DNA of 6,739 nt from Thermoplasmatales archaeon SW_10_69_26 (GTDB lineage: Archaea; Thermoplasmatota; SW-10-69-26): positions 1-6,739 of the forward strand of contig PXUB01000012.1 of NCBI GenBank assembly GCA_003009755.1, written 5' to 3'. Under the pieces are notes generated by a model that was given only the letters and a program-made list of their open reading frames with translations, had not been told where the DNA came from and did not search any database. The position numbers were made by a program, and so were the translations under genes. Below, in pieces: positions 117-5,065 of this stretch (positions are counted from its first letter, which is position 1; the number at the start of each line of letters is the position of its first letter).

Positions 117-161
117 GCTGGGAACGACCCTCACGTGTGTTGTTCTTGGACCGTGGTACGC

Positions 162-174
162 AAACGTTTAACCA
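162..174 (+). promoter_or_regulatory. AT-rich TATA-like promoter element for the membrane regulator gene
   Basis: The segment AAACGTTTAACC stands out as AT-rich in very GC-rich surroundings. It is centred near position 168, about 26 nt upstream of the GATGTTAAG region around 195, the spacing expected between an archaeal TATA box and a transcription start. That would give a leader of about 20 nt carrying the ribosome site at 203-210. AAACGTTT (162-169) is itself a perfect palindrome, and TTAAC (168-172) has an inverted copy GTTAA at 194-198. The assignment rests on composition and spacing only. Confidence 0.35.
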
Positions 175-202
175 TTCTTCAACGGTCTGGGATGTTAAGA
201 CA

Positions 203-210
203 AGGTGGTG
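203..210 (+). promoter_or_regulatory. Ribosome binding site that decides the start at 216
   Basis: AGGTGGTG lies five bases before ATG 216 and resembles the GGAGGTG anti-16S consensus. It favours ATG 216 over the in-frame upstream starts at 135 and 192, because it would fall inside the coding region if either of those were used. Confidence 0.6.
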
Positions 211-215
211 GTTGG

Positions 216-1208
216 ATGGAACGCGGTGCGATCCTCGGCTTCGTTGCCTTGGCTGTGCTGCTGCTCGTCCCCGCGGCGAGCGCGGTCCACGAGGACGACG
301 AGACGCAGATCGAGATCTCCAGCGACGATCTCGCCTGCGAAGCCGAGGAGACCTGCGAGGCGCCCAACGCGAAGGCTCGCCTCGCCGTGACGCACCCGTC
401 CGTCGATCCGAACGCGCCCGACCCCGAATGCGTGACCACGGTGACGCAGGGCCAAGGCCCGGGCCTGCCCGATTGCAACGTCCGCGAACCCCGCGTCGAC
501 CCCGCGATCGTTCGCACGTACATCGGTGTCGACGGCCTCGCGACGGGCGACGACGCGAACGACGGCGACGCCCAGACCCACGGTCAACCGGCCCAGGCCG
601 ACACGTCAGGCGGCCTGAACGTGGACATGGAGTCCGCCATCCTGCTGGGCGCCCTCGGCCTCGGCGCCTCCGGTGCGGCGGCCGCCGTCGGCCTCCGCCG
701 GCTGGCGACGCTGCTGCTGGCCCCGCTGGCCTCCCGGCTGTCCCGCTCCGAGATCCTCGAGAACGACACCCGCAAGCAGATCTACGAGGCGATCCAGGCG
801 GAGCCGGGCATCAACCTGCGCGGCCTCGCCGACGAGGTCGACGTGGCTTGGGGCACCCTCCTGCACCACCTGAAGAAGCTCGAGGACGCCCACCTCGTCA
901 AGTCCGAGCGCTACGGGAAGTACCGCCGCTTCTTCAAGAACGGCTCCGCGTACTCCGAGGAGGAGCAAGACCGGCTGGCCGCCCTGTCGACGCCCTCGAC
1001 GGCGCGCGTGGCCGAGTACATCCTCGAGAACCCGGGCGCCCACCAGTCCGAGATCGGCGACGAGATCGGGGTCACCGCCTCGACGATCCTCTTCCACGTC
1101 AAGCGCCTGAAGGAGGTCGACCTGATCGAGGAGGAGCGCGAGGGTCGCTACGTCCACTACTACCCCAACATCCAGGACCACGAGGCCGCCCAGATGGCGA
1201 CCGCGTGA
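216..1208 (+). CDS. Membrane-anchored transcriptional regulator with tandem winged-helix domains
   Basis: The 330-residue protein has a signal peptide (residues 1-23, hydrophobic core FVALAVLLLV, AxA-type cleavage after ASA-23). An acidic ectodomain of about 115 residues follows, with four cysteines (41, 47, 72, 87) that could form two disulfides. Next come a Gly/Ala-rich membrane segment (about 141-160) with Arg161-Arg162 on the inner side, and a hydrophobic stretch to about 175. The C-terminus carries two winged-helix domains (about 179-240 and 258-320), each with a recognisable turn and wing: VAWGTLLHHLKKLEDAHLV and VTASTILFHVKRLKEVDLI. This predicts an outside-facing sensor joined directly to cytoplasmic DNA-binding domains. 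Similar MarR/ArsR-like tandem regulators are common in Euryarchaeota. The start at 216 is chosen from the ribosome site and the signal peptide; an extension to 135 would bury the signal sequence. The ligand and target genes are unknown. It is convergent with the next gene, with 7 nt between stops. Confidence 0.85.
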   Translation: MERGAILGFVALAVLLLVPAASAVHEDDETQIEISSDDLACEAEETCEAPNAKARLAVTHPSVDPNAPDPECVTTVTQGQGPGLPDCNVREPRVDPAIVRTYIGVDGLATGDDANDGDAQTHGQPAQADTSGGLNVDMESAILLGALGLGASGAAAAVGLRRLATLLLAPLASRLSRSEILENDTRKQIYEAIQAEPGINLRGLADEVDVAWGTLLHHLKKLEDAHLVKSERYGKYRRFFKNGSAYSEEEQDRLAALSTPSTARVAEYILENPGAHQSEIGDEIGVTASTILFHVKRLKEVDLIEEEREGRYVHYYPNIQDHEAAQMATA

Positions 1209-1639: not shown

Positions 1640-2089
1640 GTGGCGCACGAGGACCCGTCGCTGTCCACGAACGTCGAGATGTACCTCGAGACGATCTACT
1701 CCCTCACCGAGGAGGGCGGCTCGGCCAAGACGACCGAGATCGCCTCGTCCTGGGACGTCTCGCCGGCCAGCGCCACCGAGATGGTGCAGAAGCTCGACGA
1801 GATGGGACTGGTCGACTACAAGCCCTACCACGGGGCTCGCCTGTCCGACGACGGGCTCGACCGGGCGCGCGCGATCATCCGCAAGCACCGGCTGCTCGAG
1901 CGCTTCGTGACGGAGGTCGTCGGCATCGAGGACCGCGAGCGGATCCACGACATCGCTTGCGACATGGAGCACGCGCTCGCCGAGGAGGTCGAGGCCTGGA
2001 TGGCCGAGGAGCTCGACTACCCGAGCGAGGGGCTGGAGGGGCGACCGATCCCGCCGGCCGACTACTATCCCGAGGAGGGAGACGCGTGA
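1640..2089 (+). CDS. DtxR/IdeR-type iron-dependent transcriptional repressor, short form
   Basis: The 149-residue protein has an N-terminal winged helix (about 10-70, containing VSPASATEMVQKLDEMGLV) and a helical dimerisation and metal-binding domain (about 73-125). The metal ligands of Corynebacterium DtxR are all present: M14 in EMYL, H83 and E87 in KHRLLE, and H103, C107, E110 and H111 in HDIACDMEH. A Cys at position 107, where MntR has Glu, points to the iron-sensing type. It ends after a PIP motif and so lacks the C-terminal SH3-like domain of full-length (about 226-residue) DtxR. GTG 1640 is chosen because it places EMYL at the expected distance from the N-terminus; upstream codons read as a low-complexity Arg/Pro tail. 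The AAGGCGGTG at 1621-1629 is a distant ribosome site, so a leaderless message is also possible. Its stop overlaps the start of the next gene, so it probably controls its own operon. Confidence 0.88.
   Translation: MAHEDPSLSTNVEMYLETIYSLTEEGGSAKTTEIASSWDVSPASATEMVQKLDEMGLVDYKPYHGARLSDDGLDRARAIIRKHRLLERFVTEVVGIEDRERIHDIACDMEHALAEEVEAWMAEELDYPSEGLEGRPIPPADYYPEEGDA
2072..2080 (+). promoter_or_regulatory. Ribosome binding site for the first half-ferritin gene
   Basis: GAGGAGGGA inside the end of the DtxR gene lies 5 bases before GTG 2086 and supports that start over the in-frame ATG at 2095. Confidence 0.6.
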
Positions 2090-2328
2090 GCGAGATGTCG
2101 CGCTCGGATTTCCTGGGCAACCTCATGATGGGTCTGCTGTTCGAGGAGCAAGCGATCCTGGACTCCTACGACGACTGGATGGAGGTCGTCGAAGAGGAGG
2201 AGGTCCGCCAGTGGCTGTCCGACCAGGTCGAGGAGGCCGCCCACCACAAGGGCGAGATCCTCGACATCATCGAGGAGGTCGAGGACAGCTCGCTGCCGCC
2301 CTTGAAGACCGGAGGTGGGTCCCCGTGA
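2086..2328 (+). CDS. Two-helix half-ferritin-like protein, first of a pair
   Basis: The predicted protein has 80 residues and is strongly acidic. Residues about 8-36 and 40-66 should form two long amphipathic helices joined by a short turn. The first carries E20/E21 and Y28; the second carries E50-A-A-H53, an ExxH motif followed by a second His (H54). One Glu with a Tyr seven residues later, then ExxH about 30 residues on, is the ligand set of half of a ferritin or rubrerythrin diiron site, as in encapsulated ferritins that assemble from two-helix subunits. The tail after 67 is Pro/Gly-rich (SLPPLKTGGG) and is not an obvious encapsulin cargo tag. The GTG start overlaps the DtxR stop (GTGA), implying translational coupling. 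Iron or peroxide handling is inferred from the ligands and the repressor next door; the ORF is too short for certainty. Confidence 0.72.
   Translation: MSEMSRSDFLGNLMMGLLFEEQAILDSYDDWMEVVEEEEVRQWLSDQVEEAAHHKGEILDIIEEVEDSSLPPLKTGGGSP
2311..2318 (+). promoter_or_regulatory. Consensus ribosome binding site for the second half-ferritin gene
   Basis: GGAGGTGG lies 6 bases before GTG 2325. It is the best match in the window to the archaeal anti-16S consensus and fixes the start of the second small gene. Confidence 0.7.
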
Positions 2329-2531
2329 GCGAGGCCCAGACCACGGGCGAGGTGCTCGAGGAGATCCTGGCGCGCGAGCTGGCGGCCAAGACGTTCTACG
2401 AGGACCTGTGCGAGGAGGTTCAAGGCACCGAGTTCGAACGCTTCTTGCCGGAGCTCGAGCACATGGCCGAGGAGGAGGCCGAGCACGTGGAAGAGGTCCG
2501 CGAGCTGTTGGCCAAGTACGGCGACGACTGA
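2325..2531 (+). CDS. Two-helix half-ferritin/rubrerythrin-like protein, second of a pair
   Basis: The protein has 68 residues, two predicted helices (about 8-33 and 36-64) and a Q-G-T turn. E18 is followed by Y25 (spacing 7) and by E51-A-E-H54. The Glu-to-ExxH spacing of 33 is the same as between Glu20 and Glu53 in Desulfovibrio rubrerythrin. It begins at GTG 2325, overlapping the stop of the first half-ferritin (GTGA), and has its own strong ribosome site. The two proteins share layout but little sequence outside the ligand positions, so they are old paralogues rather than a recent duplication. A single Cys (C29) lies near the end of the first helix. Together they hold two Glu plus two ExxH, enough for one four-helix diiron centre; hetero-oligomerisation is my inference. 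Homo-oligomers of each are the alternative. Confidence 0.72.
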   Translation: MSEAQTTGEVLEEILARELAAKTFYEDLCEEVQGTEFERFLPELEHMAEEEAEHVEEVRELLAKYGDD

Positions 2532-2591: not shown

Positions 2592-3374
2592 ATGTCCGTC
2601 CTGCGCGAAGACGAGGGTCCCGTCACGATCGTCCGCATCGACCGGCCCGATGCCATGAACAGCTTCGATCAAGCCACCGTGGAGGACCTGGCCGACACGC
2701 TGTCGACCGCCATGCGCGAGCCGGGCACCGAGGCGATCGTGCTCGCCGGCGGCGGGGACGTGTTCTGCACCGGCGCCGACCTGACGACCTTCGCCGCAGC
2801 CGTGCAGACCGGGCAGGCCAGCGACGTCGTGCGCGAGGTCTCCTCGACGATGAACGAGGCGATCATGGCCATCGTCGACGGCGACAAGCCGGTCGTCGGA
2901 CGCATCGACGGACCCGCCGCCGGCGGCGGGCTGGGCCTGGCGCTGGCCTGCGATCTGCGCATCGCGAGCCCGCAGGCCAGCTTCACGCCGGCGTTCCTCG
3001 GCGTCGGCATCTCGCCCGACGGCGGCGCCACCTGGTGGTTGCCGCGCATGATCGGCGAGGCCCGCGCCCGTCGGCTCATTTTGCAGAACGAGACGGTCAC
3101 CGCCGAGGACGCCGACGAGTGGGGCCTCGTCTCGGAGGTCGTGGACGAGGACGAGATCGCCGAGCACACGCTGGACGTGGCGCGCGAGCTCGCCGAGGGC
3201 CCCTCGCAGGCCATCGCCGACGCCAAACGCCACCTGGGCGCCGGGGACGAGCTGCGCGCCCACTTGGAGGCCGAGACCGAGACCACGGCCGCCAGCGCCG
3301 ACACCGAGGACTTCGCGGAGGGCGTCGAGGCGTTCCTCGCGGGTCGCGAGCCGGCGTTCGATGGCGGCGATTGA
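2592..3374 (+). CDS. Enoyl-CoA hydratase/isomerase (crotonase) family protein, isomerase-like active site
   Basis: The protein has 260 residues, the usual family length. Oxyanion-hole motifs are clear: TGADL at 60-64 and GPAAGGGLGLALACD at 107-121. SFTPAFLGVGISPDGG (130-145) and the helix LPRMIGEARARRL follow in family order. Aligned without gaps to rat mitochondrial hydratase, the catalytic Glu144 and Glu164 correspond to G115 and F135, so classical hydratase chemistry is unlikely. D143 falls where 4-chlorobenzoyl-CoA dehalogenase and PaaG-type isomerases place a catalytic Asp, so double-bond or ring isomerisation of an acyl-CoA is more likely. ATG 2592 places the first strand at the normal distance. 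TTG 2565 and GTG 2580 are in-frame alternatives with typical codon use, and none of the three has a good ribosome site. The substrate is unknown. Confidence 0.85.
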   Translation: MSVLREDEGPVTIVRIDRPDAMNSFDQATVEDLADTLSTAMREPGTEAIVLAGGGDVFCTGADLTTFAAAVQTGQASDVVREVSSTMNEAIMAIVDGDKPVVGRIDGPAAGGGLGLALACDLRIASPQASFTPAFLGVGISPDGGATWWLPRMIGEARARRLILQNETVTAEDADEWGLVSEVVDEDEIAEHTLDVARELAEGPSQAIADAKRHLGAGDELRAHLEAETETTAASADTEDFAEGVEAFLAGREPAFDGGD

Positions 3375-3399
3375 AACACCCGGGACTGTTGGCCATCCC
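3371..3399 (+). promoter_or_regulatory. Possible promoter of a leaderless PH-domain gene
   Basis: TTGAAACA (3371-3378) overlaps the crotonase stop and lies about 26 nt before ATG 3400. Triplets in this stretch, if read from ATG 3361, are ATT, GAA, ACA, ACT, GTT and CAT, all rare in the surrounding genes. The segment therefore looks non-coding, and a leaderless message starting at 3400 is plausible. Confidence 0.3.
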
Positions 3400-4527
3400 A
3401 TGGACGAGCGCTCGGCCCCGTGGTTCGTCGAGGAGGACGAGACGATCGCGCTGGCCGAGCGGCCCAGCTGGCGCTACGGCCTCAGCCTGTTCCTCGAGAT
3501 GCTGGTCGCCCTCGCGGTGCTCGGCGGCCTCGCCTACGCCGGGCTGAGCTCGTGGCAGCCCGGCCTGGCGGGCTACGTCGCTCCCCTCGGGCTCGTCCTG
3601 GCCGCCGGCGCGGCGATCCTCGCCTGGCGGCGGTGCGTGACGAGCCTGTACGTCGTCACGGACAAGCGGTTGTACGCCAAGCGGGGTCGGATGCTGTTGC
3701 GGTTGCACGTCGCCAGCCACGACCGTGTCAGCGACGTCCGCTACGACCGCGGGGTCCTCGACCGTGCGCTGGGCGTGGGCAACCTGACCTTCGCCACGGC
3801 CGGCGACAACGTGTCCCTGCCGGGCGTGGCGGATGCGGCCCGCATCCAGCGGGAGGCCACGCGGGCTCGAGACGCCTTCGTCGAGGATCTGCTGGAGCGC
3901 GCCGGCCTCGACGTGCGCGCCCTCGAGCAAGCCCCGGCGGGGACCGAGAGGCTGGTGTCGCCCGAGCAGCCGGGCGCCGGGGCCGAGCCCGCCGAGCCGT
4001 CGGTCCGCGTGGACCCCGAACGGCACGGTCTGGCCCCCTACGAGGGCCCGGGCCCGGACTACGTCGGCAGCCAGGAGACGGTGCGGTGGCTGACGAAACC
4101 GACGAAGCTGGCGCTGGTGAACAACCTCGGGTTCGTCTTCGTGCTGTTGGCGTTCGTCACCTCGGCCGGCATCGGGAACCTGGTCACGCGCGCCCAGCAG
4201 CTGCCGATCGGCCCAGCGGCCGGAGCCGGCACCTTGCTCGTCCTCGGCGTCCTGGCCTGGCAGTGGTTGCGGTTGGACAACACCGAGCTCGCCGCCACCG
4301 ACGAGCGCGTGTACCTCCGGCGGGGGATCGTGGCGACGAACGTGAACCAGATCACATACGACAAGATCACCGACATCGCGTTCAACGAGGGCATCGCCGG
4401 CCGCGTGCTCGGGTACGCCACGCTCGAGATCAACACGAGCGGGTCCGCGAGCAAGCCGATCTCCGTGGACGGCATCACGGAGGCGTTGGCCGTCAAGCGT
4501 TCGATCGAGGAAGCCTCGGAGGCTTGA
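3400..4527 (+). CDS. Membrane protein with two bacterial PH (bPH2, DUF304) domains
   Basis: The 375-residue protein repeats one unit twice: a pair of membrane helices and then a bPH2 domain. Helices are at about 28-48 and 56-76, then 237-262 and 272-290. The first PH domain (about 77-160) has YVVTDKRLYAKRG, then the DRVSDVRYDRGVLDRALG and VGNLTFATAG segments typical of the family. The second (about 293-370) has TDERVYLRRG, then QITYDKITDIAFNEGIAG and GYATLEINTSG. Between them (about 160-230) is an acidic, Pro/Gly-rich linker. This is the YdbT-like architecture. The family's molecular role is poorly known; Bacillus YdbS/YdbT have been linked to resistance to antimicrobial peptides. ATG 3400 is preferred to ATG 3361, which would overlap the crotonase by 14 nt and add an atypical-codon stretch. 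Confidence 0.85.
   Translation: MDERSAPWFVEEDETIALAERPSWRYGLSLFLEMLVALAVLGGLAYAGLSSWQPGLAGYVAPLGLVLAAGAAILAWRRCVTSLYVVTDKRLYAKRGRMLLRLHVASHDRVSDVRYDRGVLDRALGVGNLTFATAGDNVSLPGVADAARIQREATRARDAFVEDLLERAGLDVRALEQAPAGTERLVSPEQPGAGAEPAEPSVRVDPERHGLAPYEGPGPDYVGSQETVRWLTKPTKLALVNNLGFVFVLLAFVTSAGIGNLVTRAQQLPIGPAAGAGTLLVLGVLAWQWLRLDNTELAATDERVYLRRGIVATNVNQITYDKITDIAFNEGIAGRVLGYATLEINTSGSASKPISVDGITEALAVKRSIEEASEA
4511..4525 (+). promoter_or_regulatory. Inverted repeat embedding the ribosome site of the second PH-domain gene
   Basis: AAGCCTC-G-GAGGCTT is a perfect inverted repeat across the end of the first PH-domain gene. It contains GGAGG (4518-4522), the ribosome site for ATG 4529 (6-nt spacing). 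As RNA it could fold as a 5-bp stem (AAGCC/GGCUU) with the ribosome site partly in the loop and stem. Ribosomes finishing the upstream gene would open it, so it may couple translation of the two genes. Confidence 0.4.
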
Positions 4528-4528
4528 G

Positions 4529-5065
4529 ATGCCGGCCGAGATCCCCTCCGACGTCCGCACGCACCTGCGCGAGGGCGAGACCGTGATCGCGTGGACACGC
4601 CCCTCGCCGCTGTCGCTGACCGGTCCGTTGCTCGTGCTCGTTGGCGTCCTCGTGCTCACCGTCGTCGTGGCCGTCCTCACCCAGACCCCTGGCCTCGAAC
4701 AGCTGGCGCCGGCAGCCACGCTGGCGGTGGTCCTCGTGATCGAGGCCGGCCGCAAGGTGTTCGGCCGGGTCCGCTCGGTGTACTTCACCGCCTACACGTT
4801 GACCGATCGCCGGTTGCTGGCTACGTCCACGTTGATCCGACGCCAGACGACCACCGTCCCGCTGGCCCAGGTGTCCACCGTCCAGCAGCGCCGGGGCCCG
4901 GTGAGCGTGCTGGTGGGCCTGGATACGTTGGTCGTCTCGGCCTACGGGGATCGGGGCACCTCGATCGAGATCCCCGGCATGGCCCAGGCCGGCCCGATGC
5001 GCTCGCGGTTGGCCCGCGCCACCGTCGACACGGCCAGCCCGCGCTGGCTGCTGCGCGGGGACTAA
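4529..5065 (+). CDS. Small membrane protein with one bacterial PH (bPH2) domain
   Basis: The protein has 178 residues. Two membrane helices (about 30-51 and 58-74) are followed by one bPH2 domain (about 83-165). The domain shows the usual order: YTLTDRRLLATSTLIRR, then VPLAQVSTVQQRRGPVSVLVG, then a strand with LDTLVVSAYG, and a last helix beginning IEIPGMAQAG. It matches one half of the preceding protein and resembles YdbS, so the pair mirrors the ydbS-ydbT arrangement of Bacillus, with order reversed. The start is 1 nt after the stop of its neighbour and is supported by GGAGG. The two proteins probably form one membrane complex. Function beyond that is unknown. Its TAA overlaps the TAG of the convergent reductase gene. 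Confidence 0.82.
   Translation: MPAEIPSDVRTHLREGETVIAWTRPSPLSLTGPLLVLVGVLVLTVVVAVLTQTPGLEQLAPAATLAVVLVIEAGRKVFGRVRSVYFTAYTLTDRRLLATSTLIRRQTTTVPLAQVSTVQQRRGPVSVLVGLDTLVVSAYGDRGTSIEIPGMAQAGPMRSRLARATVDTASPRWLLRGD
5062..5065. other. Overlapping stop codons of two convergent genes
   Basis: The four bases CTAA supply TAA to the plus-strand PH-domain gene and TAG to the minus-strand reductase gene. No space remains for a terminator between them, so the two transcripts must run into each other's coding strand. Confidence 0.85.

Follow-up and report, generated by a model that had tools for sequence, protein, structure and literature searches.

Introduction

Four-helix ferritins are commonly thought to have arisen when a two-helix half was duplicated and fused. 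Half-size chains are known from the encapsulated ferritins (EncFtn), such as Rru_A0973 (5da5), the Pyrococcus furiosus protein (5n5e), and EncB/EncC of M. xanthus, which have two long helices per chain and are encapsulin cargo or fused to the shell. Each EncFtn chain provides the ligands Glu32, Tyr39, the bridging Glu62, and His65 (PMC5012862, PMC11202242). Ferroxidase activity is wholly lost in the Glu62Ala variant (PMC11202242), and calcium lies between two chains at Glu31 (PMC5012862). The EncFtn centre, formed by two identical chains, is symmetric by necessity, and the ferritin centre varies at the second His position (PMC5012862). EncFtn assembly additionally uses a second interface that is larger than the ferroxidase one. 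A further group of short half-ferritins, the s-FLPs, is described mainly in bacteria; in Nitrosomonas europaea NE0167 (3k6c), one gene encodes a homodecamer with a complete ExxH in each chain (PMC11202242). Rubrerythrins, bacterioferritins, and ferritins carry all four helices in a single chain, and in ferritins an asymmetric centre is usual. Among the regulators of such genes, IdeR controls bfrA/bfrB. Our literature search, confined to open-access papers, found no split or heteromeric half-ferritin beyond the EncFtn papers.

Here we analyzed 6,739 nucleotides (the window; contig C15) from Thermoplasmatales archaeon SW_10_69_26, in which two small genes, A and B, follow a regulator gene. A and B look like a two-gene version of an iron-oxidizing centre that is elsewhere encoded by one gene or assembled from two identical halves. 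Our leading proposal, in which we have slightly less than even confidence, is that they are co-translated in an iron-responsive operon and form an A–B heteromer with one asymmetric diiron ferroxidase-type centre that operates without a shell.

Genes and genomic setting

The host genome (2.8 Mb, 95% complete; coded G000) was compared with PWVY01000051 (Thermoplasmata archaeon CSSed11_322R1; coded G001), which represents a second genus of the same family. Three overlapping genes lie on the plus strand of the window. The first encodes a DtxR/IdeR-type iron-dependent regulator (1640..2089; PF01325 and PF02742), for which a GTG start was picked to agree with the G001 orthologue. Profiles, fold, and alignments assign gene A (2086..2328, 80 aa) as an EncFtn-like half-ferritin without the bridging Glu and gene B (2325..2531, 68 aa) as a half-ferritin with a full ligand set and rubrerythrin/bacterioferritin-like spacing. 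The two overlapping genes of this size recognized in a sequence-only reading are confirmed: each starts with GTG (2086 and 2325), and the regulator stop overlaps the A start, and the A stop the B start, by the same 4-nt GTGA. In G001 the trio is joined by 4-nt overlaps of ATGA and GTGA, and both genera share the order membrane HTH protein, DtxR, A, B, enoyl-CoA hydratase. Amino acid identity over aligned codons between the genera is 56% for A, 75% for B, and 83% for the regulator. Third codon positions change most in A and B, which indicates that both are real proteins under selection.

The membrane HTH gene (window 135–1208), upstream of the regulator in both genera, encodes a protein that has two winged-helix domains (HVO_0163-like HTH) and is predicted to be membrane-anchored; this protein may belong to the same control unit as the regulator. 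The gap between these genes is 42 bp in G001 versus 430 bp here, where it contains an 84-aa membrane-protein-like ORF on the minus strand (1216–1470). This ORF, without a clear orthologue in the class (one weak match, G000:C5:31843), may have been inserted, or may not be a gene. Elsewhere in the window (3361–5065), two adjacent genes one base apart encode bacterial PH (bPH_2) domains and hydrophobic stretches.

Family relations and predicted folds

Single-chain AlphaFold models bear out the two helices predicted for each protein, with hairpins formed by H6-34 and H38-67 in A (mean pLDDT 82) and by H7-32 and H36-65 in B (pLDDT 93). Library profile matches were weak for A (EncB_fam 0.0026, ferrit_encaps 0.018) and for B (EncB_fam 0.0015; Ferritin, PF00210, E = 8.6e-5, just under the Pfam cut-off), and the B orthologue in G001 passes PF02915. 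By sequence, the iron protein in the PDB that matched A best was 5n5e EncFtn and the one that matched B best was EncB, and neither match was significant by itself. With a profile built on ten EncFtn-like proteins of the same phylum, A and B from each of the two genomes scored 21–22 bits, far under the curated NCBIfam cut-offs; this score was reached by 0/2000 plain and 0/2000 heptad-preserving shuffles of each sequence. Rubrerythrin-type profiles gave 26–30 bits for B and 13–14 bits for A; taken with the EncFtn scores, A therefore leans to EncFtn and B to rubrerythrin.

Foldseek ranked 5n5e EncFtn and the s-FLP 3k6c first for A, weakly, and rubrerythrin, EncB, and bacterioferritin for B, with all E-values above 0.3 because hairpins are common. 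When the fold of A was examined a second time, many unrelated helical hairpins ranked above EncFtn, so that fold alone is weak evidence for A and its case is carried by the sequence profile. On profiles, fold search, and shuffle controls combined, A and B are both related to ferritin-like proteins more closely than chance allows, and the earlier description of them as two-helix ferritin-like halves, as in EncFtn, holds. Both are half-size proteins related to EncFtn by profile, with the same two long helices per chain and Glu/Tyr and His ligand slots, and a four-helix centre would be expected only upon dimerization. B further has the helical bundle with Glu and ExxH on successive helices that marks the ferritin-like superfamily; A shares the profile relation but has no ExxH in the second-helix ligand register.

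Fission of a four-helix rubrerythrin gene was rejected as the origin of the pair, as both proteins score higher on the N-terminal half (A 13–15, B 28–32 bits) than on the C-terminal half (A 4–9, B 14–15 bits) of rubrerythrin profiles. The notion of one ferritin-like protein split into two genes, which suggests such a fission, is wrong on this point: both chains resemble N-terminal halves or EncFtn and not a C-terminal half. As far as sequence can tell, A and B represent a pairing of two half-size modules rather than a broken four-helix gene, and they differ from rubrerythrin, bacterioferritin, and ferritin, whose N-terminal half B resembles, in needing more than one chain for four helices.

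Ligand slots

In B, the residues singled out by the sequence-only reading occupy canonical slots in alignments and on the helical wheel. E18 (2376..2378) falls in the terminal Glu slot and Y25 (2397..2399) in the Tyr39 slot by MAFFT, wheel, and HMMER, and E51 (2475..2477) and H54 (2484..2486) fall in the bridging Glu and ligand His slots by these methods and hhalign. The Glu32/Tyr39/Glu62/His65 set is complete in B and incomplete in A, which has Ala for Glu62. The host B also fits, from H46 to H54, the HXXXEE-X-EH signature described for bacterial EncFtns (PMC11202242), with H46 replaced by Asp in G001. Ligand slots are 30 residues apart in A, as in EncFtn, and 33 in B. The 33-residue spacing is of the bacterioferritin type.

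On the second helix of A, the ExxH read as a diiron motif (E50/H53) is present in letters but lies one residue out of register. MAFFT, hhalign (against EncFtn and against B), and HMMER all set A51 (2236..2238) and H54 (2245..2247) at Glu62 and His65 in both orthologues, and the register is fixed by the HxGE stretch that follows the ligand (H54-K-G-E in A; HVGE/HMGE in EncFtn). The helical wheel (100 degrees per residue) agrees: A51 faces the core at +2 degrees and H54 lies at −58, with E50 at −98 and H53 at −158, compared with −18 to −34 for the ligand Glu and −73 to −94 for the ligand His in B and two real EncFtn proteins (−13 for the Glu of the G001 B). The angles of E50 and H53 are those of EncFtn Glu61 and residue 64, positions described in a review as gateway slots. 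Alignment likewise puts E50 (2233..2235; MAFFT, hhalign, HMMER) in the Glu61 gateway slot and H53 (2242..2244; hhalign, HMMER) in the outer gateway slot of EncFtn Glu64, so that E50/H53 is unlikely to be the diiron ExxH. E50, H53, and H54 are all kept in both genera, and 15/16 residues over positions 48–63 are identical between them.

The helix-1 residues noted earlier in A fared unevenly. Y28 (2167..2169), kept in G001, sits in the Tyr39 slot by MAFFT, wheel, and HMMER; E21 (2146..2148) is a candidate terminal ligand in the Glu32 slot by spacing, MAFFT, and wheel, whereas HMMER and hhalign insert one residue and favour E20. A gapless MAFFT alignment shows that, in both genera, the slot of EncFtn Glu31 is taken by a Glu of A (E20) and by an Arg of B (R17). 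A51, also kept in G001, is the natural equivalent of the EncFtn E62A variant, and its place at the bridging Glu slot argues against a working A–A centre. The asymmetric roles once suggested for A and B are more apt than could be known at the time, since A holds Ala at the true Glu slot.

Distribution and cellular context

The co-occurrence that was to be checked in related genomes holds in 2/2 family genomes, and neither A nor B has an orthologue in 5 other class genomes or elsewhere among the 389 phylum genomes sampled. A scan of genome contigs for relatives of the pair returned PWVY01000051 only, and viral contigs and plasmids yielded none. Other phylum matches to the B profile, among those with a readable frame, were full-length ferritin-like proteins (L044, L047), and one extra match to the A profile (G130) looked spurious. 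EncFtn-like matches at E ≤ 0.001 were found in 85/292 phylum genomes; only one clears the curated cut-off, and the weakest include some that sit in longer proteins.

Aligned to DtxR (1bi0), the regulator matches all the DtxR metal ligands M10, H79, E83, H98, C102, E105, and H106, in addition to having both DtxR domains. Iron control is likely because all the DtxR iron ligands, including the Met10 and Cys102 equivalents, are kept; a search ahead of the regulator gene gave no convincing operator palindrome. The arrangement resembles DtxR/IdeR control of ferritin genes in tying an iron-sensing DtxR-family regulator to iron-storage-like genes, and differs in that regulator and half-ferritins here form one overlapping gene trio.

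Family 1 encapsulins (PF04454) were absent from the host genome (95% complete) and six class genomes, and a positive control gave signal in three; a shell is thus unlikely. This negative applies to family 1, as the control for family 2 (PF19307) gave no signal. By eye, neither A nor B has an LXVGSL-like C-terminal targeting motif, and the C-termini differ between orthologues. The pair shares with the s-FLPs the short half-ferritin form and no apparent targeting peptide, and stands apart from them in its two genes and in the incomplete ExxH of A. From EncFtn it is set apart by two different chains, by the missing Glu62 of A and the longer spacing in B, and by having no family 1 encapsulin found alongside. 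The same genome also codes for a full-length ferritin and a rubrerythrin-like protein, which suggests a specialized role for the pair. A further ferritin-like protein (L016; G000:C47:34904-35095) follows a Fur-type regulator-like ORF.

A proposed heteromer and its alternatives

In the mechanism we propose, co-translation of A and B would be followed by assembly into a heteromer with a single diiron ferroxidase-type centre formed by its four helices. B would give a full half-site (E18 terminal, E51 bridging, H54, and Y25), and A would give E21, Y28, and H54, with A51 where a second bridging Glu would be. Such a centre, with three Glu and two His, would share the asymmetry of ordinary ferritins and lack the two-fold symmetry of EncFtn. 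Its role would be to oxidize or buffer cytoplasmic Fe(II) with no encapsulin shell, and the DtxR-type iron sensor coded just upstream would control it. The obligate A–B heteromer proposed in the sequence-only reading is plausible; its specific form as an obligate heterodimer, in which an EncFtn-like chain without the bridging Glu and a rubrerythrin-like chain with it make a single asymmetric diiron centre outside encapsulin, we regard as possible rather than probable.

The heteromer is favoured by the same trio with 4-nt overlaps in two genera and by an EncFtn/rubrerythrin relation above all shuffles. By itself A would hardly work as a ferroxidase, because its Glu62 slot is Ala in both orthologues and EncFtn Glu62Ala is inactive; B is complete. 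The residues E20 of A and R17 of B would be complementary in an A–B pair and like-charged in A–A or B–B, which is suggestive only, since members of the ferritin-like superfamily not infrequently have an Arg just ahead of the ligand Glu. With slot spacings of 30 and 33, the two chains may not pack well into a single bundle, and storage of iron in itself does not require the pair in a genome that has a full-length ferritin and a rubrerythrin-like protein.

B has all that a symmetric homodimer needs, and the main rival, which we consider unlikely, is that B alone forms a symmetric half-ferritin (an EncFtn-like homodimer or ring). A would then have an accessory, structural, or iron-delivering role and bind away from the centre, for instance at the non-ferroxidase interface, while contributing nothing to the centre itself. 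The complete E/Y/ExxH set and the signature match of the host B fit this account, as do the larger second interface in EncFtn assembly and the missing bridging Glu of A. However, R17 would then face R17 in the B–B centre, and a structural subunit has no obvious need for the Glu, Tyr, and His that A keeps in ligand slots in both genera, or for the near-identity of residues 48–63. The conserved E50, H53, and H54 could instead serve, with nearby residues, as a shifted ExxH in an A homomer acting as a metal sensor or sink, with B as a separate ferroxidase. H53 faces away from the core on the wheel, E50 points sideways, and the tight coupling of A and B speaks for joint action, which makes separate homomers improbable. 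That A is a degenerating half-ferritin kept only through its operon position would accord with its lost ligand and with its faster divergence than B and the regulator, but a decaying gene would not be expected to change most at third codon positions and stay nearly invariant over residues 48–63 across genera; we consider this very improbable.

If the A–B heteromer exists, it would stand, as a two-gene form, between the symmetric half-ferritins and the asymmetric ferritins made of a single chain; with such a divergent pair of halves, one without a ligand, the step from a symmetric to an asymmetric diiron centre could be tested on a very small protein. The pair would further suggest that archaeal half-ferritins are able to work outside encapsulins. 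In two other Thermoplasmatota loci (L009, 938-2914; L006, 926-1731), the gene immediately after that of a full-length ferritin encodes a 95-aa EncFtn-like half-ferritin with no targeting peptide evident by eye; both half-ferritins may be archaeal counterparts of the s-FLPs that act without a shell. In L009, the half-ferritin is followed by genes that read like superoxide reductase, peroxiredoxin, and a rubrerythrin-type protein.
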